Shown: one piece after another, positions 449 to 60,799 of the stretch
How positions within the stretch are numbered: position 1 is the first letter of the stretch
Layout: each line of letters opens with the position of its first letter
NCBI GenBank assembly: GCA_029237695.1
Contig: CM055272.1
Location: 12,946,042-13,010,041 of the forward strand
Reading direction: 5' to 3'
DNA from: Conchocele bisecta
Taxonomy: Eukaryota; Mollusca; Bivalvia; Lucinida; Thyasiridae
Length of the DNA: 64,000 nucleotides
Program-made: the position numbers and the translations under genes
Notes under the pieces: model-generated
Told to the model about the DNA's origin: nothing
Databases searched by the model: none
What the model saw: the letters and a program-made list of their open reading frames with translations, nothing else

Positions 449-1548
449 AGCATAAAGAGAAGAAACTTAATTCATTACTAAAGAAAATATATTATGATCC
501 AAAAAGTTAAATTGCCTACACAAGTGCAAAACACTTGTATGATTCAATTAAACGAATAAACACATTTTCAGATGTTAGATTAAAACATATACAAGAATGG
601 TTGAGTAGACAGAAAACATATACACTTCATAAACAAATTCAAAGACGTTTTACACGTCGTAAGACAATAGTAGGAGGTATCGATCAACAATGGCAAGCTG
701 ATTTGGCAGATATGCAACAATTCTCAGGCGAAAATAAGAATCAAAGATATCTATTGAGTGTAATAGATGTATTTTCAAAATATGCCTGGGTCATGCCCCT
801 TCCTAACAAAACGGGGAAAACATTGATTAACGTGTTTGATTTGATAATGAAAACATCAAAACGCAGGCCACGGTCTTTACAAAGCGATAAAGGAACGGAA
901 TTTACAAATAAAGAATTTCAACATTTCTTGAAATCTAAGCACATTCATTTTTTCACAACCGAAAACCCTGAAACTAAAGCAAGTATAGTTGAACGATTTC
1001 AAAGAACTTTAAAAACACGTATGTGGAAATATTTCACATATCATCAAACTAGAAAATATATTGATATTTTACAAAATATTGTTGATGGATACAACCGAAC
1101 ATACCATCGTAGTATTAAGAGGACCCCAATTTCTGTCAATACCTCAAATGAAATTGAGGTTACACATGCATTGTATGGAATGAAACAAGCTATTTCAGCC
1201 AAAAACAAATTACATGTCGGTGATTTAGTTCGTATTAATAAAACAAAACGCACATTTGAAAAGGGTTATCTACCAAACTGGACGAAAGAATTATTTAAAA
1301 TATTTCATATTAATAAAAGTTTACAAGCAACTTATAAAATTGAAGATCTTGATGGTGAAAAAATAATGGGTACATTTTATGGAAAGGAAATTCAAGGTAT
1401 AAAAGATGATGAAATATATGAAATTGAATCAGTTCTTGCTCGACGTATAAGACGTGTAGGTAATAAAACAATCAAGGAAACTAAAGTTCGTTGGATGGGT
1501 TATCCGTCAAAGTTTGATAGTTGGATTTCAACATCAAACATAATATGA
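433..1548 (+). pseudogene. Polinton integrase (rve type) with C-terminal chromodomain, P1 copy
   Basis: Retrovirus-type DDE integrase that would insert the element and make 6-bp target duplications. The start is taken as ATG 433 because that frame runs into the core and P2 has the same ATG at 25000. A TAA at 508-510 breaks it. From about 535 the frame is open for 337 codons. The catalytic triad is visible as D in QWQADL, D in LQSDKGTEF and E in ASIVERF; the last two are 35 residues apart, the classic D-35-E spacing. The C-terminus (YEIESVLARR...KVRWMGYP...DSWIS) is a chromodomain, which in related elements can guide integration to modified histones. Only the N-terminal stop appears disabling. 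Confidence 0.9.
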
Positions 1549-1826
1549 ATGAACAAGATATAATTGAAAACGGAAAAATAGAAAAACAAGAGTTTTCATT
1601 TTGTGGTAAACGAATACCAAAAAATCAATTTCAATACATTTCTCAAGTAATTATAATATATGCAATTGTTACAACAGCCATCATTCATTTAAGTATCCAA
1701 AGTCCTAATCATGAATTGTGGCTCATTCTTTTAAGTAGTTCTCTTGGATACATTTTACCAAGTCCCGGGTTAAAATTTACCAAAAAACCCCAGACAGGCT
1801 TCGATTTTACAGACGGTAAAAAATGA
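1545..1826 (+). CDS. Small Polinton membrane protein, P1 copy
   Basis: A 93-codon frame beginning at ATG 1545, which overlaps the integrase stop TGA (1546-1548) in the pattern ATGA. It has a hydrophilic N-terminus and two hydrophobic stretches (about residues 36-54 and 63-75) long enough to span a membrane, then a Pro/Lys-rich tail ending before TGA 1824-1826. The P2 copy at 26106 aligns throughout. I know no specific function. A small membrane protein between integrase and penton suits a virion or host-membrane role. No lesion is seen in this copy. Confidence 0.6.
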   Translation: MNEQDIIENGKIEKQEFSFCGKRIPKNQFQYISQVIIIYAIVTTAIIHLSIQSPNHELWLILLSSSLGYILPSPGLKFTKKPQTGFDFTDGKK

Positions 1827-2721
1827 ATTCATTTTACGTAACCTTACTGAGTGATAGTTCTATGGATATTTATCCATCAAATATACAATGTTGTTTCAAA
1901 GTTAAATTACCTCGAACAGTTCGTATCGATAAAGAAAACTGGGAAATAGCATTAGCGGAATTAATTATTCCTTCACAGTTTTTAAATATCAACAAAGACC
2001 AAACAGAATTTAATATTATAACAAAAGATTTATCTTTCTACTCGGATGCTTCAGAAATAAAAAATAAGAAATTTGATATAAATGAGATAGGCTTTGGTGA
2101 AGATGGTACTCCTGTTAAATGGATTATTAAATTTAATTTTCAACCTGGATCCTATTCATCAATAGCTCATGTATTGGAAACTATTGATAATATCATTCAA
2201 GATTCTTTTGGTGATATTTTAAAAAAAAACAAGCAAGCGATTAACGTTTCATATTCTCCGGGTATGAAACGTCCAAAATTTTGTTTCCATAAAATTCGCA
2301 AAACAGGAATTAAATTTAACCATACATTGTTTTTAAAGTCAGGTGGAGATCCAAAGCTAGTAAACGATACATTTTTTTTTCAAACAGTAATGCAAATGAT
2401 TTTTTTCCACATTTGTCAAATTTAAATGAGGGGTTTAATCATTTGTTTATTTACTCTGATATTGTTGAATATTCGATTGTAGGACATATTCAAGCTCCGA
2501 TTTTAAGAGTTGTACCATTCAAAACATCAAATTCAATTGAAAATGATATAGGTAGTCAACATATTAACCATGAATTTTTAAACTTACATTATATGCCTAT
2601 ATCAAAATCTGAATTTGATACAATTCATATAAATATAAGAGGAGATTCTGGCAATCCTGTTCATTTTGTTCTTGGAAAGTCTATGGTGAAGTTACATTTT
2701 AGGAAAAGAAAAATAGATTGA
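1823..2721 (+). pseudogene. Penton / minor capsid-like protein, P1 copy (frameshifted)
   Basis: Starts at ATG 1823, overlapping the preceding stop (ATGA). Two frames, 1823-2425 and 2413-2721, together match the single frame of P2 (26387-27286). The shift lies in a T run near 2371-2380 that is longer than in P2. Features of the Polinton minor capsid/penton family are an N-terminal strand-rich part (VRIDKENWEIALAEL) and a conserved tail (SKSEFDTIHINIRG, LGKSMVKLHFRK). In intact elements this protein would form capsid vertices next to the major capsid gene. Assignment rests on position and tail motif, so it is less certain than the MCP. Confidence 0.7.
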
Positions 2722-2723
2722 AA

Positions 2724-3132
2724 ATGCATCCTGTATATCGAGGAGTTACACGTCAGTATGTGGCAGGTTTAGGATCCTTGTTCAAATCTGCAATTAGAAC
2801 CGTTTCTCCAATTATAAAACCAATAATAAAAACTGGAGTAAATTCTTTTAAAAATGAAGGAATGAAACAAGGAATAGGTTTAGCTCAAGATATTTGTCTT
2901 CCAACACAAAAATCCAAAGGATGTAATTATTTCAAGAGGTAAACAAACAATGAATTCACTAGGAAAATCGTTTTTGAAGAAATTAGGTATAAAAACAAAG
3001 AAAAATAAAAGGAAACATCAGTCGCGTTCAATACATCGAAGAGTTAAGGTCCATAAATCAAGTAACAATCAAAAAGGTCTTGGTAAAAAAAGGAGAAAAA
3101 TATCTAACAGAAATTTAGATATTTTTGACTAA
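2724..3132 (+). pseudogene. Small basic pVI/pX-like virion protein, P1 copy (frameshifted)
   Basis: Begins at ATG 2724 (MHPVYRGVTRQY), just after the penton stop. The N-terminal half has a Gly/Phe-rich amphipathic segment (GLGSLFKSAIRTV); the C-terminal half is strongly basic with KKNKRKHQSR. P2 27289-27657 reads through without a stop. Here a 1-base insertion near 2895-2905 shifts the frame to TAA 2940-2942, and the second half reopens at 2950. Small proteins of this shape sit between penton and major capsid in many Polintons and are compared with adenovirus pVI or core proteins. The role is inferred from shape and position. Confidence 0.6.
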
Positions 3133-3140
3133 AATAAAAA

Positions 3141-4448
3141 ATGATGCAAAACGGTTCTTGTGAATGTAGTAAGACTGAGTTGGATGTTCAATCAGTACCT
3201 CCAACCATGACTGCTATGCATGAAAGTCAGTGGATTGAACATTTTCCGATTTCCTCTCTCAACAATAATGCTCCAATAGAATTTGTAATTCCACCACAAA
3301 CAGATAAATGGACAGATTTATCTCAATCTTACATGTATTTGAAATTGAAAATTTTAAAAACAGATAATACTGTGTTACACGCAGATGATAATATTACGCC
3401 AGTTAACAATTTCTTTCATAGTATCTTCAGTAACATTGATTTATATCTAAACAATAAACTGATAACAAATAATTCTGATACATATCCTTTTCGGGCATAT
3501 TTAGAAAATCTTTTGTCATATAACGCTGAATGTAAATCAACACAATTAGCTGCTAGTGAAATGTGGATGAAAGATACCGCCGGTAAATATGAGATTGTTG
3601 ACATTGCAGGTGCAAATTTAGGTCTTAATAAGAGGAATTCATTTATTTCTGGGAGTAAAGTAATCGAACTTCAAGCACGATTGCATTTGGATTTATTTTT
3701 ACAAGAAAAATATTTGCCCAATGGAATTGAAATTAGAATAAGACTCAATAGAGCATCGTCAAAGTTTTGTTTAATAGGAGGCACTGGCGCACCAGATGTA
3801 AAAATAGATTTTGAAAATGTTAGTTTCAATGTAAGAACTGTTGAGCTATTACCTGCTGTGTCCAATGACATGAACAGACACATAGCTCAAAAGAATATGA
3901 AAATTCCTATACGTAGAGTAGAAGTCAAAACATTCACAATTGCAACTGGAATGCGCTCAAAAATAGAAGATCATCTTTTTCAGGGGCAATTACCAAAACG
4001 GATATTCATTAGTATGGTTGATAATGCTAATTTCAATGGGGAATACGCAAAAAATCAATTAAATTTTCATCATTTTAATCTATCAAAAATTGATGTAAAT
4101 TGTAATGGTCATGGTATTTTCAACCGTCCATTTGAGCCGGATTTTGAACATAAATTATATCTTAAATCATACATGTCTTTGTATCAAGCTGTGTCTTCAC
4201 TAGGTCAAAACAAATAATTTGATATTACTAGAGATGAATATGTAAATGGATATTGTTTGTGGGGATATGATTTGACACCTGACCAGGGCAGCGAAGAGGG
4301 ACACCTACACCCTATAAGAACTGGAAATCTACGACTTGAACTTCAGTTTGCCAGAGCACTTGAAAAAGTCATCAATGTCATAGTGTTCTCAGAGTTTGAT
4401 AACCAGATTGAAATAAATAGTCTTCGTGAAGTGATCACCGACTATTAA
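3141..4448 (+). pseudogene. Polinton major capsid protein (F54H12.2-like, double jelly-roll family), P1 copy
   Basis: Starts at ATG 3141. The N-terminus has the Cys-rich leader typical of this family (GSCECSKTELDV) and then WIEHFPISSL, PIEFVIPP, LYLNNKLI and YPFRAYLENLLSYNAE, matching the hexon-like protein of Polintons and adintoviruses. The frame is interrupted only by TAA 4215-4217 where P2 has TCA, then continues to TAA 4446-4448 with LRLELQFARAL, a typical C-terminus. It would be about 435 residues, shorter than many Polinton capsids. This copy keeps the central region that is deleted in P2. Confidence 0.85.
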
Positions 4449-4460
4449 TATTGGACAATT

Positions 4461-5077
4461 ATGAACAAAACAATCCTAAAAGTAACGTATTGGTGAAATC
4501 AACATCCAAAGATGGAAACCATCGAATTACAACACGGCTGAAGAGACTAAACGGAATAGTATGCCCAAAAGACAAGCTACCAAATCACAGACCATTAGAC
4601 GTCCAAGCGTACATAATCAACACGGATAATTCTGATCAACCTGGAAAACATTGGATAGCCATTGTATTCGACCAGAAGAATGAAGCAACCTACTTTGACT
4701 CCTATGGATTACCACCACTACATGAAGAAATATTGTCTTTCTTGACAAACAATTCTACGAAATGGACATTTAACAAACAGAGACTACAAAGTGTATTCAG
4801 TACAACATGTGGAAAATACTGTGTGTTTGTGTTGGTTGCGATTGCAAGAGGAAATACTCTGCGTCTCTGTATTCAACAAACATTCAGTTCATCAGATTAC
4901 TTCAAGAATGATAGGACTATAACGATCTGGTTCAAACATCACTTTGGAACACTCTACGAAGGACCTCAACAAAGTTCAACATATGTCGGATGTCAATGTT
5001 GTAAACCACAACAATATCATCATGCCATGTCTTTGCATTTTCCAAAATTACTTCATGTTACAAATATGTTAACATAA
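4461..5077 (+). pseudogene. Adenain-type cysteine protease, P1 copy (5' frameshift)
   Basis: Ulp1/adenain-like protease for capsid maturation. Catalytic residues are visible: His in GKHWIAI (codon 4649-4651), Asp in TYFDSYGLPP, Gln in LQSVFS, Cys in TTCGKYCVF (codon 4809-4811). The start is taken as ATG 4461 because P2 has the same ATG at 28674; here a missing base within the first ten codons shifts the frame, and about 20 bases present in P2 are absent near 4540. The C-terminus ends in a Cys pair (CQCCKP) before TAA 5075-5077. It is the last gene before the right terminal repeat. Confidence 0.85.
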
Positions 5078-5720: not shown

Positions 5721-5745
5721 TGATAATGGGAGTAATAAGGGGTGG

Positions 5746-5862
5746 CACCTATGGGGTACTTTTTTAGCATGTGTTTTTTTACATAGACACCCGGTGTTCC
5801 GGTAAAAAATGTCTATGTAAAAAACACATGTTAAAAAAGTACCCCATAGTGCCACCCATTAC
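5746..5862. repeat. Terminal hairpin-forming palindrome, right end of P1
   Basis: The outermost part of the terminal repeat is itself an imperfect palindrome: arms of roughly 45 bases running from GGGGTGGCACCTATGGGGTA and back through TACCCCATAGTGCCACCC, around a loop near ACCCGGTGTTCCGG. The same architecture, with diverged sequence, is seen at both P2 ends. Confidence 0.8.
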
Positions 5863-9964: not shown

Positions 9965-10772
9965 TACACAGGCTATATGGTGTAATATTTCCCGTCTGGA
10001 GGTAATTTCCTTCAGTACCTTCAGACGGGCAATATTACACCATATAGCCTGTGTAGAATCACAATAACGTATTTGTCATACCGCAGATCCTTAATTTGGC
10101 CGTATAAACATATCTCTTCTTTTGATCTTTGCGTTTTTTCAGGAAGAAAAATAATCCGAGATTCGATTTTCTACCGTCAGTCTTACTATAAAGGCGTAAA
10201 TGAATATTTGGGTTTTTTATTAAACGAAAACAAACTAGATATGGGGTAAGAAATCCATCGAAAACGACTTTATGACAGTTTTTTTATATCGTGTAATTTA
10301 ATTTATATTCCACTGCTCTATCGATCTGCTCTCCCTTTGGCGCCTCTAGAACAATGCCACTGGTTCCCAAACATTCGCTGTCATTGCTACGCCGCGTTTC
10401 GTGCGTGAACCCATAGTTTGTGACCTAAATATAGCCGTGTCACGAAGCCAAGTGTGATGAGATTTGAAAACACTAAACGGGACAGTTTGGCTAATTTGTC
10501 GCTCATATTTTGATGAGCGAAGAATATTTATGGACAAATAAACAATAAAGACTGGTTTTAAGTGTACAATCTTTTTACTTGTATTGATCAATTCGGGTTT
10601 TTGTTGTGCTTAGTGAGGAATACAATTCTTGCAAAATGTGTCTTCATTGGGCGCCAGGCGCCGGAGAGGAAACGCAATTCCTCTATGTCTGACGGCCTTG
10701 GCAGGTCATATCATATATATGACCAGGCAAGCTAGCCAATCAAAAGCCGAGAAACTTATCTGCGGTATGAAA
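9965..10772. mobile_element. Insertion of unknown type inside the P2 left terminal repeat
   Basis: The terminal-repeat match stops after GGTTGGAAACT and resumes at TACTCCACAGTGGCACC. The extra 0.8 kb starts with a strong hairpin (arms 9964-10000 and 10019-10055, CTACACAGGCTATATGGTG and its complement). It contains no recognisable coding sequence. I see no clean inverted termini for the whole block, so it may be a nested or truncated element. Confidence 0.6.
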
Positions 10773-14212: not shown

Positions 14213-15785
14213 AATTAACTGTATAGAATGTGAAACTTGTACTGAGAACTGAATCTCAGAGACTTTATTTAGCAAAGATTTGTTATTTCATAAGTAAGTT
14301 TCATACTAAGTACTTTTCAGAAGTAATATATTTACTTCAGTGATATATTAAGTTACTTAATATTCTGCTATTCAGGCTACTTTTCGAGGCCCCGAGAATG
14401 TCGGGAATTGTAACATGAGATAAGAGCGTCAATCGTAACGTAACTTAACGTAACGTCCCACGCTTGCGGCGACGTCACTTCCGTTGTTATTGTTTATTAG
14501 TAACGTTAATGTCGAACCTGAAATACACAACAAGCTAAGCTAACATAGTTTGTTACTCCACTATATATTCCCATATGTTTGGTGCATCAAGGCAAATTCC
14601 TTCAGCTTCTTCATAGTCCTTAACAAATGTTTCTTTGTCTTTTTCTGATACACACCATCCGGGGTAACCACTTGCTTCTTGTTTGATTTTAAGAAAATTG
14701 TCCATATACCCAGAGAAAAAGTCATTAGATTTTTCAGAAAAATGCCATACTTCATAACACGTCTAACAAAGTGTTGTCACAGTCCAATGCATTAAACAAT
14801 TCTATTGTCACCCATGTACCAACCAAAGCTCTTTCTTCAATTATATGTGTACACTGTGTAGAACTTTCTTCTCCACATGTTATACATAGTGTAAACATGT
14901 GTTTGTTATTCCAATGTGTCGGTAACACGGGATGAAATATATTTTCAGGGGGAAGAACTTTACATTTTAGCAAACCCTCATACTGTCGGATGTTTTCTAC
15001 ATCAATGTTTTCTTTTGTCAAAATTTCGGGGTGTCCTATCGGATGTTCTTTGTGCTTACATACAAATGGATACAATGAACAAATATAAATAAATTTCATT
15101 TCGTGATCTGAAATTTCTTCAACATCGTATTTAATTTGTATGTCATTACAACGTCCACCAAACAATAAAGGACCAATTTGGTAGTCACCGCCATTCTTTT
15201 GCATGTTGGATAACAATATTGTTTTCGTGTGATTATACTTTGAATCCATCGAATATCTTTCATTGAACATTTACGTTTAATCGGATCTCTGCTTGAAATA
15301 ATTCCGATCTGGTTACTAGGCATGTATTTGCTACGCCAAACTTTGTTATATGCGTCAGCGATTGTACTGGCTTCTAAAAACGGATCTATACCACCATATT
15401 CCATGAATACCTTCCTGAATTCTCCACAGCCACGTCTCAAAATATCTACATCCGATCGACAATATTTCTCCATTTCTTGTTTGAAATTGAAACAATCATT
15501 GTTTTCCACACGTTCGTTATACCATGATAAAAACTTTTCCCTAGCAGTTGTCCCCATTCAATCTGGTTTGTAATAAGAGACATGCACGTATGGACCAACA
15601 TAATTGGCAAATTTGTCAGTATTTTCCCAATGTGGAAAATATCCCTTATCCATTTCTTTCAATTCAAAGGTTTCTGGAAATTTTGCCAATCCTGAACTTA
15701 TGAAATTATATGAATCAATCAATCTTATTCCTCCAGCTTCCAAAACCATGTTATTACCGTTCATTTTCATTATTACCCTTGGATG

Positions 15786-17000
15786 AATGGAATGGAATGG
15801 TGCTTAACGGCCCATCAACACAAAATAGTATCATTTAGGGCCAAGAAATGTAGATGAAGAATAAAAATAATAGTAATATAGTATTATATATATATGGTAG
15901 GCAATCAGATGATTAGGGTAAAAATACCAATACCATGAGCAATAGAGATGAGTAAAATGTATACATATGATAAAATAATAGAAATGAGAACCATGTATAC
16001 AATGATAAAATTAAATTTTCCGATACGAGTTAGTTTCATGGAGAAAGCGAAGCAAACCTTCAATGTTCTCCACATGGAATAGCTCCGCAAGTGAAGTAAC
16101 ATTGAAGTGTTGGCGTCGAATATCGGCAAAGTCGACACAGTCCAGTAGGATGTGTTACACGGTAAATGCGCTGTGGCATGGAATACACCATGGTCGCGGC
16201 TCACCCTTGATCATATACGAACGCGTTAGTCGTGTATGTCCAATGCGCAATCGACTAAGGACAACTTCATCCACGTCTGTAACCAGGAGTCCATTCGCAC
16301 AGAGTCGGTTTCACAGCATGAAGTTTATTATCTGTGAGCAGATCCCACAGGGTCTGCATTGTATCGGAGATGAATGAGTTGATGGATGATTTAAAATCAT
16401 GATAGCAAACAGGAAAATGAGAAGTCGGTAGCTCCATGGCGGCCTTGGAAGCACTGATACCAGTATGACTGGGGAGCCAACAAAAAATAATATCCTTGCC
16501 AGACGAATGTAAAATATGGTGTAGCTCCATGATTTGGCGGATAAGTGGATGTTCAAGCTTCATGTTGTACAAAGCTTGTAGTGAAGATAATGAATCGGAA
16601 AATAAAATGAATTGCTTTCTCCAAGATATTTTCGCAAAATCAAGAGCATGTAAAATTGCCCTCAATTCCGCAGAAAATATCGAAAATTTGTCTGGGAGTC
16701 TGGATTGAAGATCTCCCTCGGACAGCGGCAGCAGCTACTACCCGGTCCCTGACCTTTGAGCCATCAGTAAAAAGCGGAGTGTATGTATTGTATCTGTCTT
16801 TAACTTCAAGAAAAAGTGATTTAAAAATGGATGGATCAGTTGTTGCTTTCGTGTGCTGACTAAGTTCGAAGATCACCTTGGGCTGCTTCAATTGCCACGG
16901 TGGTGTATCTGGAACAGCGTATTTGGCAATGTGATCCATATCCAAGCCAGCATCGTGTATCAAAGGATCCATTCTCTTGCCGAATGGTGGCTTGAAGCTT
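15786..17000 (-). mobile_element. 5'-truncated Nimb/I-like LINE inserted in PolB
   Basis: On the minus strand this matches the 3' half of the LINE at 42.4-44.9 kb. It runs from the YDTVFHR/PLIHDAGL region through the RNase H motifs (LFSDSLSSLQAL; IIFCWLPSHTGI) and the C-terminal Cys/His region to a tail read as TTAAGCACCATTCCATTCC at 15787-15808. PolB sequence resumes on both sides. Stops and frameshifts are present. Confidence 0.85.
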
Positions 17001-17690
17001 GCCTTGGTTGAAACATTCCCTTTTCAATGAGATGGTGAAGTATGAATTGCCCATCATACGCTTTGAAATTATGTGCAATAGCTGTGACACCTTTATGTTG
17101 TTTTCAAAACAACCAATTACAAAATTCTGACAAAGTATTTTTTCCTTCAAATACTACTTCTCTTCCTCCAGGAAACCCGACTACAACATTCACAATTGAA
17201 TTCTAGTGGTTCATTCATACATTCATCACAAGCTCTGTGTGCAATACAATAGTTAGGAATGTGTACACCAGTGTCTTGTTGACATTTGAAATCATAAAAT
17301 ATGAAAAACGGTTCATGATCATCTTCTTCAGTTTTGCTTTTGACAGTATGACATTTGTGGTTAAAATTTACAATCTGTTTACAAAATTTGCATTTCTTCT
17401 TTCCTCTGCATGTATGATTCTTCTTTGTGTCGGCAAACTGTCCTCCACATTTGCCACAACATTTTATGAGTTGACAAATTGATTTCTTTTGTCGCCCTTC
17501 AATTTGCTTGTGATTTGCAAAACACATTCCACTATAAAATGTCCTGAGACAATCTTTGCACTTGATACAATCTACCACATGATTTTGTTTTGGAACGACA
17601 TGCCTGACACGAAGTAGGGCATATATGTGTTTCGCAATTTTGGTAAGCAACATCACAAATTTCACAATAGTAATGACATCCAAGAAAGAA

Positions 17691-18641
17691 GAGTTGGGTA
17701 TCGCCGGAAAAAACGTATCGCGATACGTATCATGATAGTCGGGACGTATCACGATATGTATCACCATAGTATCGCGGATTACTCTGATAACCAGTTACAC
17801 TGTTTTTGTACTGTGCAGCCAAAGTTGTGTACCATACATAGTTGTTGTGTGGTGTTTATCACTGTTTATAATTAGTTGTATGCATGTTCTACTCGTTTTT
17901 CTTTAATACAAAATAGATCAATTAGTTATATTGCATAATTAATTGGCCTCCAGACGGTTTTCAAATAATAAAAAAAATGCCCATGGACAGAAAGAGGTGG
18001 GGCTGTGGTGAGGGGGTGGAGGGCGCTTGGGTAGGGAGGATTGAAATTCTAATGTCTCAAAAAAAGATCGCTAAATGCACAATACTCAATAATAATGATG
18101 CAGCTCAATTTGATTGATACTAACATTGTGATTTGGAGTTGAATTTGTTTTATTATTATTATTTTTATTGAATTGTTGAACATATATTCAAAATGAATTT
18201 ACAAGGACCCACAAACACACAGAGGCATCATTAAACAACAATTTTGCACTTTAATTTTACACCAAAAACGGCCAGTTCTATTGTAACGCTGCCTTTTTCG
18301 ATGTGGAAGTGAAATAAAATGGTTGCGAAAACCCATGACACGGCTTGTGTTCCGAACTTCCGGTTTGATATGAAGTTAATAAAAAAAAATGCCATCAACT
18401 GCGCACAAGCCAAACGGTTCAATAAAGTTTTTTTTGTGCACATTAATGATTGTTAAAGAAACTGTCGATGTCCTAGGATGTCGAATCCAGAGGTTCCTAT
18501 AAAAATCACTTAATTACAATGTAGCTATCGTCAACTATCGATAGTTGGCAGTGCATCGCGATACATGTATCGTGAAGATATGTACCTCGATCTATCGATG
18601 CATCGATACTATCGATCCACGACTACAAGAAACCCAACACT
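17691..18641. mobile_element. Foldback/hAT-like non-autonomous element inserted in PolB
   Basis: The block starts GAGTTGGGTATCG and ends AAACCCAACAC, giving short inverted ends (GTTGGGT). Subterminal zones are rich in the same short words in both orientations (ATCGCGATAC, ATCGATAG). PolB reading continues from FLDV... on one side to the upstream part on the other. No transposase frame is seen and I could not find a clear target duplication. Confidence 0.5.
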
Positions 18642-19626: not shown

Positions 19627-20319
19627 ATGGACTCTCAAGCGACAGAACGTTCTTCCATTCAACTACAAAAACACGAGGAACATTTTGCTGACTATTTCGA
19701 AAGTATGAAATATTGGCACAAAGGATGTGAAATTAATTTATATGTAAATACGTTTACTCACGCAGTCGAATTCAGAAACATACCGAAAATCTATCCGATA
19801 AAATATATTGGAAACTTTGTTGGATCGTTTATATCTTACAACTATTCGGGCGATTCTGAGTACCTGATTTCTACACGGAAGAGGTTTAACAAATTCAGCA
19901 TCGATGAGAAATATGGAGGGGACGAAGTATCACCTAACATATGTTACATCTGTCAATCAACGGAGCATTGGGCTAATACATGCAGTCAGAAGATACAAGG
20001 AAAGTACATGGATGTGTTTGTGAATCTATATTCTCACGAAGTTCAATTTTCGGATTCGCCTAGTATCACCAAAGACATGTGTGTTGGAAAAGTCATGTCT
20101 TAATACAACGAAGAGAGTCATCTGAAGCTGCCGATAAATATTATGTACACTGGATGTTTCAACTGTAAATCGAAATCACATTGGGATAGTGATTGTGACC
20201 AGAAGCCAAGTTCGAAGACAGTGTAAGTTAAGGCCCCAGAGAAACCAGAGAACAGTCGTAAACGTAAACGCCAGGGTGAACCGAGTGTTACAGTCAAGAA
20301 GAAGAAATTGGACTTTTAG
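19627..20319 (+). pseudogene. Double CCHC zinc-knuckle protein with basic tail
   Basis: The frame begins MDSQATERSS and continues in one frame to TAG 20317-20319, interrupted by TAA at 20101-20103 and 20224-20226. The domains in order are an N-terminal region containing INLYVNTFTHAVEF, which partly recurs later as VNLYSHEVQF, so the protein may be an internal duplication. Then come a CCHC knuckle CYICQSTEHWANTC, a second knuckle CFNCKSKSHWDSDC, and a tail with NLS-like KRKR and KKKK. It would bind nucleic acid, probably in the nucleus. Divergent pairing with PolB suggests a replication or early role. I know no standard Polinton name for it. Confidence 0.6.
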
Positions 20320-20464
20320 ATTTGATTGATTTATATGTCTTGTTAAATGAATACAAGTTGAAATGTTTGTATTGTTTGTTATTTATCATTTTATAATTTG
20401 TATGGTCAATTCATATGATTTATAAAATGCAAGTGTTTCTCTCGGGAAATATGTCTAATAAAAT

Positions 20465-20725
20465 TCAGACAGATCTGGATACAAGTTATTCATTGTAACT
20501 TTCCACACAAAATTGTGTTTGGAAGGCCAGTAATAACCACGTCTTGCAAAGAATTGTCGTAACAATTCTTCGTTTCTCTTTTTCTTCATTATCATCATTT
20601 TTCCTGGAGAATACAATTTTTCTCAAAGGTTGAAAGAATTTCCTGATCTGCATTCTGGCATGTAAGAATGAATAGAATGATACTGTATGCTCAACATGTA
20701 GATCCAGAAATGATTTCATTGGATG
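20465..20725 (-). pseudogene. Possible small leftward gene of unknown function
   Basis: Minus-strand frames give MKSFLDLHVEHTVSFYSF and, after a shift, an Arg/aromatic-rich end (ARRGYYWPSKHNFVWKV) that looks protein-like. An AATAAA lies on the plus strand at 20457-20462 for the opposing CCHC gene, so the two would converge. No homology is claimed. Confidence 0.3.
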
Positions 20726-20806
20726 AAATTTAGAGGATTTGATTGAATAAGGATTCTGTCCCTCTCATTGGATGAATTTCAATCCGTGTTTACAGTCAAG
20801 CTTGTG

Positions 20807-20839
20807 TAAGTAGGTCAATCCGTTTGCTGGGTATAAAAG
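20807..20839 (+). promoter_or_regulatory. Promoter: shared upstream motif plus TATA box (copy 1)
   Basis: TAAGTAGGTCAATCC (20807-20821), ten bases, then TATAAAAG (20832-20839). The ATG of the next gene follows at 20889. The same motif at the same spacing precedes the gene at 21879. Confidence 0.75.
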
Positions 20840-20888
20840 CATGTGTTTTTAACACATACTTCACTTGCTTAATCGAACACTCAAAGAA

Positions 20889-21167
20889 ATGGATACTGAT
20901 CGAATCAATATGATGTCAAGGCGGATATCAGAATTGATTGAAGTAGCAGGGTCGATGAGGGAAGACATAGTAGCACTGCAATTGGTTACGGCTGACCTGG
21001 CGGCTAGAATAACGGAACAACCAAAACCTGTTTACAAAGAATTTGAAACGGACGACCGAACGAATTTTACTACAGAAACAAAACCTGATACTACTGGTAT
21101 AAGTCTTGCCAGAGTCAAAACTCGCGAATCAACCAGCAAATGGCGACGCATTTGCACTGAATATTAG
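20889..21167 (+). CDS. Small coiled-coil protein of unknown function
   Basis: A 92-codon intact frame starting at ATG 20889 (MDTDRINMMSRRISELIEV), 50 bases after a TATA box. Residues 1-45 have heptad-like hydrophobic spacing consistent with a coiled coil; the rest is polar and ends with a basic KWRR. The next small gene with the same promoter motif (21879-22480) also encodes helical sequence. A perfect histone-type stem-loop starts 30 bases after the stop. Function is unknown. Confidence 0.55.
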   Translation: MDTDRINMMSRRISELIEVAGSMREDIVALQLVTADLAARITEQPKPVYKEFETDDRTNFTTETKPDTTGISLARVKTRESTSKWRRICTEY

Positions 21168-21196
21168 TTTGTGTATGTGTACACTCTAAACAAAAC

Positions 21197-21212
21197 GGCC
21201 CTTTTCAGGGCC
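21197..21212 (+). terminator. Histone-type 3' stem-loop 1
   Basis: GGCCCTTTTCAGGGCC fits the replication-dependent histone mRNA consensus GGYYYUUHUHARRRCC with a 6-bp stem and 4-base loop. It has the A/C-rich 5' flank (CAAAAC) and ACCACACA after it. It lies 30 bases downstream of the 20889-21167 frame, on the same strand. The reverse complement does not fit the loop rule, so orientation is informative. Confidence 0.85.
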
Positions 21213-21430
21213 ACCACACATTATTACGAAAATATTACTTTCAAATGTATATCCTAATAACTTTGTATATTGAGGACCCCTTTTTACCGTTAGTTGTTAA
21301 ACACAAGATACATTTCGATTTGTAAAACATGTAATATCTTCAGATGTTATTTAAACATTTTATAAGTTAGCATGCGTACAATCTGATCCGATGTAATTTA
21401 TACATGCTTACTCTCAGGTCGGATGTAACA

Positions 21431-21440
21431 CTATATATTG
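21431..21440 (+). promoter_or_regulatory. TATA-like element before the Cys-rich gene
   Basis: CTATATATTG lies 33 bases upstream of ATG 21473. The TAAGTAGGTCAATCC motif is not present here. Confidence 0.4.
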
Positions 21441-21472
21441 AACCAGAAAAATAGGTTTTACATCAGTTCGCA

Positions 21473-21700
21473 ATGGACAAGTCTGGCGTATGCAACACAT
21501 GTAGGCAACGGTGCTATATTCAATGTGGGTTGTGTTACTGTATTGTAACACATAAGGGACAGAAACACAACTGTCCAGAAGAAGGGAAAAAAGAATGTTG
21601 GTTTGAATGTTGCAAATATTGCGACAACTGTATGGTAGCGCGTTCTGCATATTTTGGTAGAAGAAAACGGCTCTTTTCAGAGCCACACAAAGTTTCATGA
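21473..21700 (+). CDS. Small cysteine-rich protein of unknown function
   Basis: A 75-codon frame from ATG 21473. Thirteen cysteines occur in the first 54 residues, many as CxxC pairs (CNTCRQRC, CGLCYC, CKYCDNC) with a His/Cys cluster between (KGQKHNC), so it probably binds zinc. The last codons run through a histone-type stem-loop, which makes the annotated C-terminus doubtful: an ancestral stop just before the stem-loop could have been lost by a small frameshift. Flanked on both sides by genes with histone-type ends. Confidence 0.5.
   Translation: MDKSGVCNTCRQRCYIQCGLCYCIVTHKGQKHNCPEEGKKECWFECCKYCDNCMVARSAYFGRRKRLFSEPHKVS
21668..21683 (+). terminator. Histone-type 3' stem-loop 2
   Basis: GGCTCTTTTCAGAGCC keeps pairing although two stem positions differ from copy 1 (C-G replaced by T-A), a compensated change. 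It fits GGYYYUUHUHARRRCC. Flanks are GAAAAC and ACACAAAG. An AATAAA follows at 21700. Confidence 0.85.
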
Positions 21701-21811
21701 AATAAACCTTACCATTTTTACTGTAAAAAATAAGTAAAAAATGAAGTAACTTTTTCAGAGCATCGTTTTGTAAGCCACACTGTGATTGGTCACTTGATTT
21801 TTATCAATTTC

Positions 21812-21844
21812 TAAGTAGGTCAATCCTTCTGATGTGTATAAAAG
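21812..21844 (+). promoter_or_regulatory. Promoter: shared upstream motif plus TATA box (copy 2)
   Basis: TAAGTAGGTCAATCC (21812-21826), ten bases, then TATAAAAG (21837-21844). ATG 21879 follows 34 bases later. The spacing is identical to copy 1 although the intervening bases differ. Confidence 0.75.
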
Positions 21845-21878
21845 GCGATCATAAAATCATTAATTTACATTCGATACG

Positions 21879-22480
21879 ATGGCTGCCAACGGAAGGTACG
21901 ACTTTATCGGTCAAGAATTTGATTTATTAGTAGAGGCCATGGGTGATATATATCAGCCAACCTATCAGCCATAACAACAACAGCAACAGCCAACGGTTCC
22001 TGTATACGTCCCAACACCCAAGATAGAAAATTCTACATGATATCAACCAGGACAACATCAGACACAAATCCAAGGAAGGAAGAAAGAATACAACAACAGT
22101 GTATACCTGATCGTTTACCTCAGAAAGAAGACATGATGGTATTGAAAGAACTACAGAAACTGAACAACAATACAGAAAGAATATTACAGAAACTAGAGAA
22201 CATCGCATCACGACATCGTGTTCAACTGGACAGTATGACAGTCACATTATCAAGTAAACTAGAGAAGCAGTCTGCAAATCGGAACTTTACATTTAACACA
22301 CAGCCATTGAAAGTACCTACCAAGTTTGAATTGGACAAGAAAACAGTGGCACAGCTCAGTCAACATGTCGAGCGGACACTGTGTGATAGTTGGCGAAAAA
22401 ATACATATAAAAGTGGGGCTGTTGCACATCATAAACACATTCGTCCAGAAAAAGAAAATCATTTGATTCCACGAAAATAA
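21879..22480 (+). pseudogene. Gln-rich / coiled-coil protein of unknown function (broken)
   Basis: Starts at ATG 21879 (MAANGRYDFIGQEFDLLVEA). TAA at 21972-21974 interrupts a glutamine-rich stretch, a second stop follows, and a frameshift near 22040-22100 leads into the open frame that ends at 22480. The second half has a helical region (LKELQKLNNNTERILQKLENI) suited to a coiled coil, then a basic C-terminus. Shares promoter motif and 3' stem-loop type with the gene at 20889, so they probably belong to one expression class. Confidence 0.5.
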
Positions 22481-22567
22481 AATAGTACTAATCATATTTT
22501 TAAAAAAAAACACAAAATAAAAAAAGAAAATATTTTTTAAAGACACAAAAAAACACTAAGCCAACTC

Positions 22568-22583
22568 GGCCCTTTTCAGGGCA
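22568..22583 (+). terminator. Histone-type 3' stem-loop 3 (one mismatch)
   Basis: GGCCCTTTTCAGGGCA differs from the consensus only in the last base, losing the bottom stem pair. It lies 88 bases after the 21879-22480 frame and 9 bases before a perfect copy. Confidence 0.65.
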
Positions 22584-22592
22584 ACCCCAAAC

Positions 22593-22608
22593 GGCCCTTT
22601 TCAGGGCC
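22593..22608 (+). terminator. Histone-type 3' stem-loop 4
   Basis: GGCCCTTTTCAGGGCC with 5' flank CCCCAAAC and 3' flank ACCCCAAA, close to the canonical CCAAA...ACCCA context of histone genes. It forms a tandem pair with stem-loop 3 by what appears to be a short duplication. Confidence 0.85.
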
Positions 22609-22703
22609 ACCCCAAACTATTCGAACAGAATTCCTTTTCAAATAAAATATTGCTATACACATGATAGTGTATCTTAATACATGTGGACCTTGTACTGTAA
22701 ACA

Positions 22704-23229
22704 ATGGAGAACGAAGACATATTGTCTTTGTTATTTCAACATCCATGTAACATTTATGTAGCAGGTCCAAGTGGATGTGGAAACACTGAAATTGTACAAA
22801 AGATGATTGATTATCGCAAAGATTGATTTAATATTGTACCCGAAAAAGTAATATGGTGTTACAAAGAATGGCAACACAGCTATACCATTACGCAAGAAAA
22901 GTTCAATTTCCTTAAATTTATTGAAGGTATCCCAGATGATGAAAATGAAATTGTATCCGATGTATCAATTCCACATCTTGTAGTATTTGATGATATGTTA
23001 GGAGAACATGATGAAGAAAAAATAAAATAGGGTTTACAAAAATTACCAAAACAAACATTGAGTTTCATGGAAAAAAAATAAAAACGATATTAAACAATTA
23101 GCGGATCCTACAATTGATGATGATACAAAGAAAAAAATAATATTAAAACCTGGTGGTGGATGATTTTTAGGTGGTGTAATTATTAGAAGTTTATTTCGAA
23201 TGAAAGGTACACAAAAACGTGAAAAATAG
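22704..23229 (+). pseudogene. Polinton packaging ATPase (FtsK/HerA type), broken
   Basis: Starts at ATG 22704. The Walker A region reads NIYVAGPSGCGNTEIVQK, but codon 22782-22784 is AAC (Asn) where the loop Lys is needed, so ATP binding should be lost. Walker B is PHLVVFDDMLGE (about 22970-23005). TGA at 22824-22826, several later stops and frameshifts follow, and the tail ends in a Gly/Arg-rich segment (GGVIIRSLFRMKG). The family powers genome packaging into capsids. Position upstream of the capsid genes is normal for Polintons. Confidence 0.8.
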
Positions 23230-36474: not shown

Positions 36475-38487
36475 TTATAATCTAGGAGGTACATTTAAGT
36501 CAATAGTTATTGGAAAAAAACGCATAATCTCAGCAATAAAGATGCTCAACCGTCGTAACTGTATTTCTGACTTGCAATTGAGAAGTTCTTTGAATTTTAT
36601 AACATTTGGATACCGATAATAGTAACGTTTGAGATACAATTTTCGTTTATCCGAGAAATGTGGACAGACTAGCAGATAATGAAATTCGTCACCCAAATCA
36701 TTTTTATTACATATGGTACACTTACGTTCAGAATGGGGTATCCCTAACCATCTACCTGTCTCGATTGGGAGTTTATGATTACCTGTTCTAAATCTTACAA
36801 GATTATAGTACAATGATTGTGGTAAACATGTGAAGTATCCTTCTATATTTGTGTTATCTTTAAATAAATTATACATCTTACCTTTGTTAGATTCCGAGAC
36901 ACGTGAATGCCAGTTTTGGATAAATTAATCCATTAGAGTACGTTTAATTTTATTTTTACTTAGTTCCTGCATATTATAGTCTAGATTATTCCCCGTTTCA
37001 TTTACTATATGTTTTATGAACTGCAACCATTTAAAATTAGTGTTTTCAAGGTTCGAAATATATTCTAACATCAGATATGATAATTTAGTCTGGTTGCCAT
37101 TTACTATTCTATTCCAAAAACCTAACATCCTGGTTTTAATAGTAATCGATATTGGATGTCTACCGAGCTCGGCATATAACATGTATAACGGTGTGGATTT
37201 ACGACTTTTTGTTATTCGTCTTAAAAAGTCGGTATGTATTCGCTCCAGGATATCTAGATTTTCGTAGCCCCAAACTTCACACCCGTATGTCAGAATTGGT
37301 AGAATTGTATGGTCGAATAATTTTAGTTGGAGATCAATTGGTAGATCCAAGTTGTTAATACGTGTATATAGTAAAAATGTTGCCTTTTTTGCTTGTTGTG
37401 CTATATGTTTTCGGGCATTAAGAAAACTTCCGCTCCTTGAAAAGTATACACCAAGGTATTTGTACTCATTAACTATCTCTATTATTTCATTACCGATACA
37501 AAAATTATATTTTTTATTATTGTTAGTACCAAATACTATGACTTTAGTCTTGCTTATATTTATCTTTAGCTTCCATTCATTGCAATATAGCTGGAAATCG
37601 TTTAGACACCTTTGAAAACTTTTTTCGTCTTCGGCAGTAATTATGGTATCGTCTGCGTACAACAGAACTATTATTTTTATGAAAAAGGATGAGTCTATCG
37701 TTCGGTGGTGAATTTTGATACCGTCATTATTGTTGACCGATAGTGACATTTCAAGGTCATTCAAAAATAGTGAAAACAATATTGGTGACAAGTTTTCTCC
37801 CTGTCTGACTCCACAAAAGCTTGTAAATAATTGGGAAGTTTCGTTATTGTTTGAAACACACGATTTAATACCGTCGTACATATTATATATAACTCTGAAA
37901 AATAAACCATTTACGTTGGTACTCAGCAATTTTCGCCATAGTCCTATCCTCCAGACAGAATCGAAGGCTTGGGAAAAATCAATAAATGAACAGAATAACT
38001 TCTTTTTCTGTTTCCTCATTAGTTCTATTAATAAATGTAACACAAAAATATGGTCAGTTGTTGAGTATCCTTTCCTAAAACCAGCTTGATTATTTGACAA
38101 ATATTCGTTATAATCGACAAATTTCGTTAAACGTTTGTTTAGTAGCGCAGTAAACAATTTACCCAGACAACTAAGGATTGTGATTGGCCTGTAATTTGCA
38201 GGATTTTCAACATCACCTTTGTTTTTGAAAATAGGTTTAATTGTCCCGATTAGCCATGACTCTGGCAGTATACCTGTTGAAAGCACGATATTAAAAAGTG
38301 ATACATATACGGGTAGCAATATAGTTTGTGTGGTTTTAATGTATTCGTTTAAAATGTTGTCAGTACCACAGGCTTTCGCGTCTTTTAGTGTTTTGATTAC
38401 ATCTACTATTTCACGCTCAGTTATTGGACAATTTAGTATTTCGTCATCCTCACTAACGTCAAAATTTACTAGCGGTATTATCAGCAT
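36475..38487 (-). pseudogene. Non-LTR retrotransposon reverse transcriptase, 5'-truncated
   Basis: A 520-codon frame (38487-36925) contains the RT motifs in order: ANYRPITILSCLGKLF, QAGFRKGYSTTDHIF, FIDFSQAFDSV, GVRQGENLSPILFSLF, LLYADDTI (catalytic YADD), and a thumb region with LTYGCEVWGYEN. After a stop and shift, 36876-36475 gives the C-terminal zinc motif CTICNKNDLGDEFHYLLVC. The endonuclease is missing upstream of 38487. It differs from the Nimb-like LINE elsewhere and has no RNase H. Clade not assigned. The long intact RT frame suggests a fairly recent copy. Confidence 0.85.
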
Positions 38488-38489
38488 GT

Positions 38490-41400
38490 ATTATTGTATA
38501 TGACAGGGTAGGTAGATTAGATCTATAATACATATTTTACATTGTTTATGTTTCTTGATGGTTGCTGAAAACCGCGAAAATCCATGACAACGCCAATAAA
38601 CTTGTAAAACACGGGAATTACACTTGTATGAAAGCAACATCAGTATTATATAAACTTGATATTATCAGCAAACATGATAAAGAATGTAAAATAAACCTCG
38701 TCTTTAGAATTCATAATACTCTCATTAAAACCCAACGTGCAGAAAACGTCACCAATACAAGTCATTACGCGGCAAATTTGACATGTTTGCCTATGGTGGG
38801 CTGCAACGGCCATTCGTCTTATTGTCGAATAACCCAGTTTTAAAAGTCATTTTTATGGGATTTCCCTTATTCAGATTTTTCTAGACTTGATATGTTCTTT
38901 ATAATGCTATCTTCAACACATGTGTAAAGAAATATATTCTGTTGCAATTATGTTGAGGTGATCATACAGGCTGACTGGACTATAAAGGACAAGGCGCAAT
39001 AAGGCCAAAAATCGGCCCACACCCAAATTGGAAAATAACAGTGTAGTTATTGTAGTCTATAGTATTATACAGCACAAGTTTTTTAAAACATATGAACTCA
39101 ATGTCACATTCTCCTCTGATGTTCATGGAGTCTGGTGAGCGAATTAGGGCCATCATGGCCCTCTTGTGTCATTCTTCATCTACATTGATGGGCGGTTAAG
39201 CACCATACTATTCCATTCATTGATTGAATGGCGAGCAGTGCAGATCCTGACCTACATTGGTAACAAAACCAATAAGCCTCATATCACCAGTCACAACCAC
39301 ATTTATTCTACATGATACAAGTACAATGTCTGGACTATATTTCTTCCTTTCTTGTGTCCAGTGAATTATGTTCATTCGTCGCCACCGAGTCTGTGTCTTC
39401 TATAAAGGAAAGGTCTTCCGTCTGGAACAATACGTCGCTTTCATGCTTGAATAGTTTCTTGTTTAGTTCCATCATCCTCTTATATTTGTCTGAAAATATA
39501 TGCGAACATTGCTTCAATTATACATGTATTAGTTGATAATGAAGTGACGATGTTTTCGATTACTTATCTAATTTCAAACATATGCTACACTACTACTACT
39601 GCATACGCACTTTAATATTGTGCTGGAAATCAAGCAGCCTGATTGACTGAACCTGAGCTATGCCAAAGCTCAGGAATAGACAATGAAATTGCTTGATTGC
39701 GAGACGGATTTGACAATTGACAATAGATGTTTTGAAACGTCAATAATCTCACCAATATAATGAATGTCGTCAGATATGGCGTCTAATATACATGTAGTTA
39801 TTTGAACAACACATTTAACAAGCATTCCTATGTCTATGCTTAAACGAACCAGCTACATTGTATTGTACGAATCTTTTAAATTGAATCATCTTTGGTAAAT
39901 ATTAAAGTTACTGTAATATTAAAATGAAACATATGTATAAAACATGCTTTAATCTGTTCAATAAAATAGGCGGGTTCGCGGATAAGTTACATTTAGGTTT
40001 TAGGTTTTCCTTTTGATTCGCTTACTTAAAAAACCTGAATTATGTTAGCTTAGGTGTGATTTTCTTTTTGATTTACCTAAATACACACATGTCCCCTCTA
40101 TGCTTCCGTAAATAGCTAATAATAAAGACAACCACAGTAGCGATACATATGCCCATTACGATTAGATGGCAATACATAGAACATAGCTTCAATACAAAGT
40201 AATTGCACCATTCTTTTTGTACATGGCCTCATTTTACAAAATCGAAAGTTGACGAAATGTTCAGAGCCAATGCGATATGTGCGGAAACTTTCGGCAACTT
40301 TCGACAACTTTCGACGTCATTTACAGATAATATCATAGTTTCTGTCAATATCTTTCATGGAAAGTCGCACATCTGTTTAGATCAAAATCACTTGGTTTTG
40401 TCTTGTATGCACATGTGTATACTTGAGAGCATCACCAAGTTTATTTGTGAAGCGCAGTTCAGTTTCTACGCTGGCTATAACGCCAAACAACTTGGCGGAT
40501 TTTGACGTTACGTCAGTGGCGTAGCCAGAGCCTGATAAACACCGAGGCAATACCATTGGTCCGGCGAACGCCACGGACAATTTTTGAAAGATACATCGCA
40601 TGTTCTGCGTTTTGTCATATTTTAGAGCAATATGTTCGACAACATATTTTGCTATTTTTGTATGAAACGTTTTAAAATCATAGAGAATGGTAGATTAATT
40701 GATGGTATTTGCTACTGGGGGCTTGTTCCCGGGGTAAACACCGAGGCATAACATTACATGGTCACGAATAGTCAAATCACGATCTGGATTTAAGATGAAC
40801 ATGATGAAAGCATAAAATAATGATAATAATAATAAAATAAAATCCGGAAAATAACGTGGATACGGCGCTGTACGTGTGGTAGCATACGTATCTGACGTCA
40901 TATATATTGATCTTATAGATACACGTAGGCACATCATACACCGAAAATAGAAAGCACGCATCTGATTAGTCAATTGAAACCACAGCCTATAACATATGAA
41001 AAATCACAGTATATAAAATCTCCGTTTTACCAGTCTGTGTTTTACACCTTGACATGTAACCCTACGCGCTTTTGTAAACAATGGCCACCTGCGGGAATGC
41101 AAATATTTCAAAATTGATTTCGGTACATTTTAGGTTATCCATTCTGCCATATTAACAACCCAAAGCGGAAAAGAGAATCTACCAACGACTGACAAATGTG
41201 ACTTCAGTGTGGTGGCCCGTCAACAAATTCCAAAAAAATAGTACTCCAACCGCCTAATATACAGAATAATTTAGTAAAGTGCTCAAATGCAAACTGATTA
41301 TGTCAGTACCAACCAGCTTATAACTTTACGAAATCCAATGTGCAAATACATAACTATACATAATACACAGTATTGCAGATGGGTAACCACCTGAATTTGG

Positions 41401-44896: not shown

Positions 44897-44989
44897 GAAT
44901 GGAAGTAACAAAATTGATTTTTGCGCAGGTAGTTTTCGATTGTCATGTTTGTGTGAATGTGGGTCTATGGGAAATCAATTCACTGCCTG

Positions 44990-46902: not shown

Positions 46903-47312
46903 TATGATCACGTGGTTACAACAACAGCAACAAGTATTGAAGCTTCCAAAAGCCCACGTATTCTTTTATTTTATCCTTCATTATCTAACGGATTGTGCTT
47001 AAATATGGCGCATCAAACGCGTCTTGTCGAGCTGCATTTGGTGGTCTCCGTACGTTGGCCCAAACTTCTGTCGTTTTTGCGAAGAATCGATTCCCTTGTC
47101 TACAGACACGGTAATCGATTCTTCGCAAAAACGACATAAGTATTTGCCAAACTCCCGGTACCACCAAATGCAGCTCATGAATACGCGTTTGTTGCGCCGT
47201 ATGTCATCAAAATCCGTTGCATATTAAGAACAATATCAAATAATTCTTACTTTGGAGTGGGCGCTCTTTCAGCCATTGTTTTTGCTATTGTAACCACGTG
47301 ATCATGCACCCT
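46903..47312. mobile_element. Large foldback element, copy 1
   Basis: Outer arms: GATCACGTGGTTACAACA near 46910 against TTGTAACCACGTGATC near 47288. Inner arms: CGAGCTGCATTTGGTGGT against ACCACCAAATGCAGCTC. Core: GTCGTTTTTGCGAAGAATCG against CGATTCTTCGCAAAAACGAC. A second copy occupies about 57884-58232. Confidence 0.8.
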
Positions 47313-53346: not shown

Positions 53347-53413
53347 AGCATCGGCATTGCCATGCTTTTTACCTGGCCTATATTATATACTGAAGTCGAA
53401 TGAGGATAGAATT

Positions 53414-55801: not shown

Positions 55802-55959
55802 CGTGAATAAATCTGACGGATGTCTGTATGTGTGTATTACTTATCGTCCGAGGGGCGTAATGACGTTGGTTTCTATACTCGATTTCTTGTTTGAACAAAT
55901 TCCGTGTGTTGTTTTTCCAGGCGTGAATATCGGATCACTAGATCTCATGGGAATGAGAT

Positions 55960-60770: not shown

Positions 60771-60799
60771 TCGTCCAGCTAACCTTGTTCAACTGGCCC

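Follow-up and report, generated by a model that had tools for sequence, protein, structure and literature searches.

Histone-type promoters and 3′ stem-loops at the small genes of a Polinton-like transposon in the bivalve Conchocele bisecta

The window analysed here, a 64,000-nt stretch of the Conchocele bisecta genome, contains two Polinton copies. The first is truncated at the left edge of the window, with integrase, capsid and protease frames between positions 511 and 5074. The second, which bears the stem-loops described below, is decayed: pieces of its PolB lie at 14.7–17.8 kb on the minus strand, remnants extend to ~29 kb, and the small loop-bearing genes are located between PolB and the remnant of the packaging ATPase (Table 1). 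Judged from its gene content, the element appears to be a Polinton/Maverick of the animal adintovirus-like kind, combining PolB (DNA_pol_B_2), a retroviral-type (rve) integrase, an adenovirus-type protease (adenain), a capsid protein and a packaging ATPase; within this set the rve and Peptidase_C5 matches lie under the Pfam cut-offs on broken frames, the capsid is assigned by sequence homologues and the ATPase by motif alone. The capsid frame at 3141–4214 has 273 homologues. Among the 120 of these that were listed, the named relatives are from bivalves (Mercenaria, Crassostrea, Ostrea and Saccostrea), and the sole non-bivalve label is one bacterial MAG record. Viral relatives with DNA were found neither by the capsid protein search nor by the capsid alignment.

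Table 1. Features of the decayed Polinton copy in the window
Feature	Position	Strand	Evidence
PolB, fragmented, with other repeats in between	14755..17794	-	DNA_pol_B_2, 53 bits for 14755-15270
Gene D remnant (66 aa in other copies)	20455..20622	-	comparison with other copies
Gene A promoter element AAGTAGGTCAATCC, TATA box at ~20832	20808..20821	+	exact in host H2B promoter (L011), same TATA offset
Gene A, 92 aa	20889..21167	+	open frame; Pfam 0 families
Gene A histone-type stem-loop (16-mer 21197-21212) and purine-rich downstream region	21192..21237	+	RF00032, 40.2 bits; 29 nt past stop
Gene B promoter, H4-type element and TATATA	21369..21437	+	aligns with H4 upstream of the host (L009), 83% over 60 nt, E 3.8e-10
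Gene B, Cys-rich; frame overruns its own stem-loop here	21473..21700	+	ORF
Gene B histone-type stem-loop (16-mer 21669-21684), stem pair 4 T-A not C-G	21664..21709	+	RF00032, 41.7 bits
Gene C promoter AAGTAGGTCAATCC and TATAAAA	21813..21843	+	exact 13-mer
Gene C, reading frame broken in window copy (open part 22037-22480)	21879..22480	+	ORF and sequence
Upstream one-mismatch copy of gene C stem-loop	22568..22583	+	pattern match
Gene C histone-type stem-loop (16-mer 22593-22608)	22588..22633	+	RF00032, 35.7 bits; AATAAA within next 45 nt
Packaging-ATPase remnant, without stem-loop	22707..23170	+	Walker A-like motif, by eye
Polinton integrase, broken, without stem-loop	25087..25962	+	rve, E 2.5e-5 and 0.0016, both under Pfam cut-off
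Major capsid protein remnant, without stem-loop	27847..28413	+	same family as window 3141-4214, by eye
Adenovirus-type protease remnant, without stem-loop	28784..28966	+	Peptidase_C5, E 0.00046, just under Pfam cut-off

The initial annotation had described four 16-base elements fitting the histone stem-loop consensus on the plus strand of the window. All four are there, at 21197, 21669 (not 21668, as first given), 22568 and 22593; three are exact and the one at 22568 has a single terminal mismatch. A fifth 16-mer, with one mismatch, lies elsewhere in the window at 60795. Dinucleotide shuffles gave 0.40 matches on average and 3 at most, and 0 of 100 reached five. The loops of genes A, B and C matched the Rfam model RF00032 with E-values from 6e-9 to 1e-6 (scores in Table 1; the gathering score of the model is 34), the copy at 22568 being absent from the matches even at E up to 1. 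By these sequence matches the window loops can be classed, as RNA elements, with the RF00032 family. The 46-nt loop region of gene B also aligns with host H4 3′ ends at 80–83% (E 9e-8 to 8e-7). The compensated pair noted in the second loop, T-A for C-G, is present as described. That the loops come after gene ends likewise holds, whereas the overlap of the second loop with the end of its gene is true of the decayed window copy only: gene B overruns its loop here because the stop of other copies is missing, and in five of those (L005, L006, L007, L013 and L016) an in-frame stop lies, by eye, 16 nt before the loop.

We searched the host assembly (1.89 Gb, 1196 contigs) with RF00032 and found loops after the homologous genes in many other Polinton copies. 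The best of 257,327 candidates comprised at least 75 scored matches, at least 68 of them above threshold, and the DNA around 74 of the 75 was compared by tblastn with the window genes and the core histones. Polinton small genes precede 61 of the 68 above-threshold matches (gene A 52, gene B 5, and 4 in what we call the B slot). Five lie behind histone genes, four labelled H4, with one of these labels (the L008 match) resting on a weak partial H4 hit, and one labelled H2A. The other two have no gene hit; to the eye, the flank of one resembles that of gene A, and the second is in a stretch with H2A/H2B-like hits. For all 75 scored matches the corresponding numbers are 56 for gene A, 5 for gene B, 4 for the B slot, 1 for gene D, 6 for histones and 2 without a gene, with one locus left out. 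That the region might be an inserted fragment of a histone cluster was also considered, and rejected: when core histones and H1 were among the tblastn queries (E 1e-4), the two loci covering window positions 19692–23209 (L014 and L033) matched Polinton queries only, with no sign of histone sequence in the region.

Since loci were mostly fetched through the gene A loop, the count for gene A itself (57 of the 63 gene A ends in fetched loci) is biased, and neighbouring genes are the fairer test. Counting 16-mers with at most one mismatch and including the window copy, loops end gene D at 41 of 45 places, at 38 of them exactly 16 nt past the last residue, gene C at 37 of 42 (within 350 nt) and gene B at 7 of 8, while the packaging ATPase has none in 27 (within 350 nt). 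Mononucleotide shuffles reached loop level in 1 of 900 cases for gene D, 0 of 840 for gene C, 0 of 160 for gene B and 0 of 540 for the ATPase, and on the antisense strand at the gene ends in fetched loci nothing matched even with one mismatch allowed. Gene D runs opposite to genes A, B and C, and its loop is on its own strand. The window copy of gene D is one of the four loopless among 45: its own loop (~20440, minus strand) is lost and the downstream purine stretch, by eye, is kept. Five of the six loopless gene A ends are in loci (L034, L039, L051, L052 and L059) that each also have a loop-bearing gene A end. Elsewhere, the pattern GGYYCTTTTCAGRRCCAC was found in three stretches of IMG/VR, which resembled phage or bacterial DNA by eye and all stayed below the RF00032 threshold, and, by pattern match alone, in 68 stretches within 257 Gb of prokaryote contigs. 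A chance origin was rejected on the shuffles, the zero control counts and this rarity elsewhere.

Promoter positions revealed a second set of genes beyond PolB, of which one stretch was read (L142). It contains two minus-strand genes, each with a histone-type promoter: gene E, of 135 aa, with a perfect loop 20 nt past its stop, and gene B2, of 70 aa, with a loop 16 nt past its stop. B2 is a Cys-rich relative of gene B (local score 122 against a shuffle maximum of 54). In four of six stretches the B slot is occupied by a 49- or 50-aa frame related to gene E that replaces gene B and has both a promoter element and a loop (one of the loops mismatched); in the other two (L047 and L061) no frame of 40 aa or more was found. 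The element has at least six small loop-ending genes, A, B, C, D, E and B2, on both strands, E and B2 being known from one copy. This goes beyond the initial annotation, as do the host-histone-type promoters before five of them. A Pfam scan of five of the genes gave no family for A and E and nothing above cut-off for B, C and B2, with no histone recognised. Gene A had no homologue among 5.8 billion proteins, and protein relatives of the B/B2 pair were not found.

Upstream regions of the small genes resemble those of host histone genes. Polinton genes A and C share with the host H2B gene of L011 the element AAGTAGGTCAATCC, placed just upstream of the TATA box, and gene B shares with the H4 genes of the host a TTACTCTCAGGTCGGATGTA block upstream of TATA. 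Besides the match given in Table 1, the gene B promoter aligns with the L010/L011 upstream regions at 87% over 52 nt. In the sister copy L060, the gene C promoter has a 20-nt match at 95% to the host H2B promoter (E 0.003), and the gene A promoter aligns at 85% over 92 nt with the stretch before a host H2A frame (L004; E 4.8e-19). No start codon could be seen in this H2A frame, and the gene may accordingly be damaged. Incomplete frames occur among the other host histones too, with clear starts for H4 (L010, L011) and H2B (L011), and the host side of the comparison therefore rests most firmly on these genes.

Local alignment scores to host histone upstream regions were 61 for gene A (L060), 48 for B2, 44 for E and 36 for B, against shuffle maxima of at most 18 (16 for gene B's own); six late-gene upstream stretches scored 7–10. 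The promoters of the window copy scored 19 (A) and 18 (C), barely over shuffle maxima of 15 and 16, and gene A of the window against H2B scored 15, under the shuffle maximum of 17. Overall, promoters of H2A/H2B type precede genes A, C, E and B2 and one of H4 type precedes gene B, all five resembling histone promoters of the same genome. Gene D shares the divergent region with gene A; in the two copies examined, three or four CCAAT boxes were counted for gene D, and no TATA was matched within 330 nt.

Within the fetched loci, with overlaps removed, the 13-mer AGTAGGTCAATCC with at most two mismatches precedes gene A at 47 and gene C at 38 places (43 and 36 exact), with a TATA 10 nt past it at 42 and 36 places, respectively; inside the window it occurs at the gene A and gene C places only. 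There are 17 promoter-element places without a gene hit behind them, 5 of which lack a TATA, including exact matches in the host histone loci L010 and L011. Genome-wide, the promoter element with TATA occurs 832 times, compared with 0 for the reversed pattern, and exact gene A units running from promoter to loop occur 123 times, compared with 0 in the control. One such unit lies 3.9–4.3 kb left of the window, the expected site of the small genes of the first Polinton copy. The structural genes examined have neither a loop nor a histone-type promoter. We conclude that the small genes are flanked on either side by histone-type cis elements and that many copies carry these. The promoters constitute an independent second leg for the proposed link to host replication.

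Stem sequences differ between the genes in a manner that preserves pairing: GGCCC/GGGCC in A and C, GGCUC/GAGCC in B, GGUCC/GGACC in D and AGCCC/GGGCU in B2. Three pairs are changed on both sides (pair 3 in D, pair 4 in B and the outer pair in B2), and these compensated changes distinguish one gene from another rather than the copies of a single gene. A few loops contain a broken pair; among the seven gene B loops, two have pair 3 disrupted. Together with the Rfam matches and the loops of other copies, the compensated pairs uphold the claim of the initial annotation that successive Polinton genes end in histone-type 3′ stem-loops. Downstream of the loop, the purine fraction at +13 to +21 is 0.96–0.98 in gene D and 0.79–0.97 in host histones; in gene A it is 0.99 and 0.84 at +16 to +21, and genes B and C are less marked. 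An AAGAAAG-type host core (by regular expression; AGAAAG and the like) is present in 40 of 41 gene D and 11 of 11 host regions, compared with 1/60 for A, 0/7 for B and 0/36 for C. The downstream element 12–15 nt past the loop is thus host-like in D, whereas A, B and C have a purine bias only, with a weaker core match. The gene D 3′ region aligns with that of host H4 at 89% over 44 nt (E 3.5e-7).

These observations suggest that the small Polinton genes are probably expressed like replication-dependent histone genes and tied to the S phase of the host. A Polinton lineage would have placed its small accessory genes A, B (or the B-slot replacement), C, D, E and B2 into host-style histone expression units, in which a short single-frame ORF is followed by a 3′ loop and, near the place of the histone downstream element, by a purine block; upstream, genes A, B, C, E and B2 have a histone-type promoter with TATA. 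Factors that activate histone genes at S-phase entry would transcribe the small genes, and SLBP together with the U7 machinery would cleave their mRNAs just past the loop, leaving no poly(A) tail. SLBP domains were detected at three host loci, with both halves of the domain at two; the RF00066 search for U7 snRNA was without a match anywhere, the controls being equally silent. The abundance of small-gene mRNAs would then track the S phase of the host, or the cleavage and germ-cell stages in which histones are plentiful, a timing that would coincide with conditions favouring replication of the element by its own PolB. Their size and position make the small genes candidate early genes; expression of the structural genes would follow, from mRNAs polyadenylated in the ordinary way. 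From the cis elements we infer both how the RNA is processed and when in the cell cycle it is made. Against this reading stand the AATAAA signals at B and C, the weaker core in A, B and C, mixed conservation, broken pairs, the low scores of the A and C promoters in the window and the possible damage to the host H2A gene used for comparison. A more far-reaching form, towards which we lean with greater reserve, is that a virus-like transposon rebuilt non-histone early genes as replication-dependent histone genes, with separate H2A/H2B- and H4-type promoters and SLBP/U7 3′ ends, so that its early phase would be confined to S phase and might take place within the histone locus body.

The loops might instead merely provide tail-less 3′ ends without a cell-cycle purpose, serving the short genes as a compact signal for termination and export, while AATAAA would give B and C an alternative route. 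The genes are indeed short and the loops compact, and AATAAA or ATTAAA lies within 45 nt of the loop in 35/36 cases for C and 6/7 for B (A 1/60, D 0/41, host histones 1/11). Genes B and C may therefore end in two ways, with ordinary polyadenylation possible. This explanation leaves the histone-type promoters unaccounted for, and we regard it as unlikely. Another possibility is that abundant loop transcripts act as decoys that soak up SLBP or U7 snRNP, cut the histone supply and keep the DNA of the element nucleosome-free, the coding parts mattering less. Several loops per element in many copies would suit such a sponge, as would intact loops beside decayed reading frames like those of the window; it would need no gene per loop, however, and the loops stand at a fixed distance past conserved frames (the 16 nt of gene D) and are paired with promoters in the manner of an expression unit. 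We consider a decoy role quite improbable.

Passive capture, in which a piece of a host histone cluster was acquired, its flanks duplicated among the small genes and the result kept by descent alone, would explain why promoters and 3′ ends resemble host H2A, H2B and H4 genes, and the loop region of the B slot does resemble a duplicate of that of gene A. Conservation is also mixed. In gene D the loop (0.96) exceeds spacer (0.87) and coding sequence (0.90), whereas in gene A, among young copies, it is no more conserved than the spacer (0.90 against 0.95; coding 0.89); the copies compared are ~90% alike and the contrasts modest. Against mere descent stand the several promoter types, the three stem types with compensated pairs, the number of exact gene A units and the loop base. 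Among 16-mers within one mismatch, the loop is UUUC in 60/60 cases for A, 7/7 for B, 37/38 for C and 40/41 for D, while it is UUUU in 11/11 host histone loops; the Polinton loops were therefore not copied recently from the host loops examined here. Capture of this kind seems very improbable to us, and the case for selection draws mainly on the contrasts between genes, on the joint occurrence of promoter and loop, and on the fact that structural genes are excluded. A palindrome working at the DNA level in replication, packaging or recombination would likewise keep compensated stems, but it is hardly credible here, as each loop lies on the strand of its gene, even for D, E and B2, which read in the opposite direction, as the asymmetry of the loop and the purine block downstream obey the histone RNA rule, and as the palindrome is absent behind the ATPase.

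If expression of the small genes does follow the histone pattern, the element would represent the first known case of a mobile element using the histone gene programme, and would illustrate a new way of timing selfish replication. A mobile element that joins the histone loop and matching promoters to unrelated proteins would also provide a natural test of what determines S-phase specificity, with numerous naturally occurring variants of the stem, the loop, the downstream element and the promoter among the exact gene A units of one genome. The timing of Polinton expression in animals is now directly testable with existing kinds of RNA data. To our knowledge, the histone stem-loop is in animals nearly exclusive to histone mRNAs, and hardly any non-histone use is known. 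Full-text literature searches, in the passages they returned, contained no report of histone stem-loops in Polintons, Mavericks or viruses.

Compared with other Polintons/Mavericks, the element resembles them in its core genes and differs in having small genes with histone-type promoters and 3′ ends. The comparison with replication-dependent metazoan histone genes, which covers one host assembly, is closer. Common to both are the stem-loop consensus with AAAC before and usually AC after it, the short distance from stop to loop, a short single-frame ORF and promoter sequence matching the H2A/H2B and H4 types of that genome; a purine block 12–13 nt past the loop is host-like in gene D and a bias only in A, B and C. 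The Polinton genes differ in that their proteins are not recognisable histones, their loop base is not that of the host, the stems GGUCC, GGCUC and AGCCC occur, B and C also have AATAAA, and the genes sit in a virus-like transposon. They thus appear to be built like histone genes, yet fall outside the definition of a histone gene. Small DNA tumour viruses also tie their early expression to host replication; the known cases achieve S-phase coupling through Rb-binding proteins or E2F sites, whereas the cis elements of the Polinton are those of the histone genes themselves.

Genes E and B2, two of the small non-histone Polinton genes that end in a histone-type 3′ stem-loop, share a locus of the host assembly (L142), where two more frames, of 148 and 124 aa and both without a loop, lie between them. 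Gene A-like copies were observed as a tandem pair in L032, L038 and L041; each copy has one stem-loop, and the loops are ~650 nt apart. A third kind of small frame follows gene A in one clade, and no consensus loop was found near it in L026 or L060. The host loci with a domain of the stem-loop-binding protein (SLBP) of histone mRNA are listed with the other features in the table.

Coordinates of genes, repeats and other elements in the window and the host assembly
Feature	Position	Strand	Remark
Genes E and B2	L142 1-3301 = C1:158021200-158024500		beyond PolB; histone-type promoters and loops
Third kind of small frame, MIIISLLNSEAK...	L026 1672-1854; L060 2674-2877		behind gene A, one clade
SLBP-domain loci (n = 3), putative genes	G000 C8:30.26 Mb, C17:49.80 Mb, C17:51.23 Mb		host assembly
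Long hairpins	window 5736-5861, 9970-10050, 47064-47141		likeness to microRNA models, sub-threshold
One repeat, two copies	window 15761-17001 and 43678-44917		inverted orientation
Reverse transcriptase frame, LINE type; Ty3-type element with gag/pol-like frames	window 36478-38490 and 51718-55840	minus	judged by eye

Another Polinton copy, truncated by the window edge, was observed at window positions 511-5074; its integrase, capsid and protease frames are longer. Outside the window, C8:12941761-12942160 holds a gene A unit running from histone-type promoter to loop.

The two copies of the inverted repeat, one of which is contained in the PolB region, are 79-95% similar, piece by piece. The long hairpins look like small inverted-repeat transposons.
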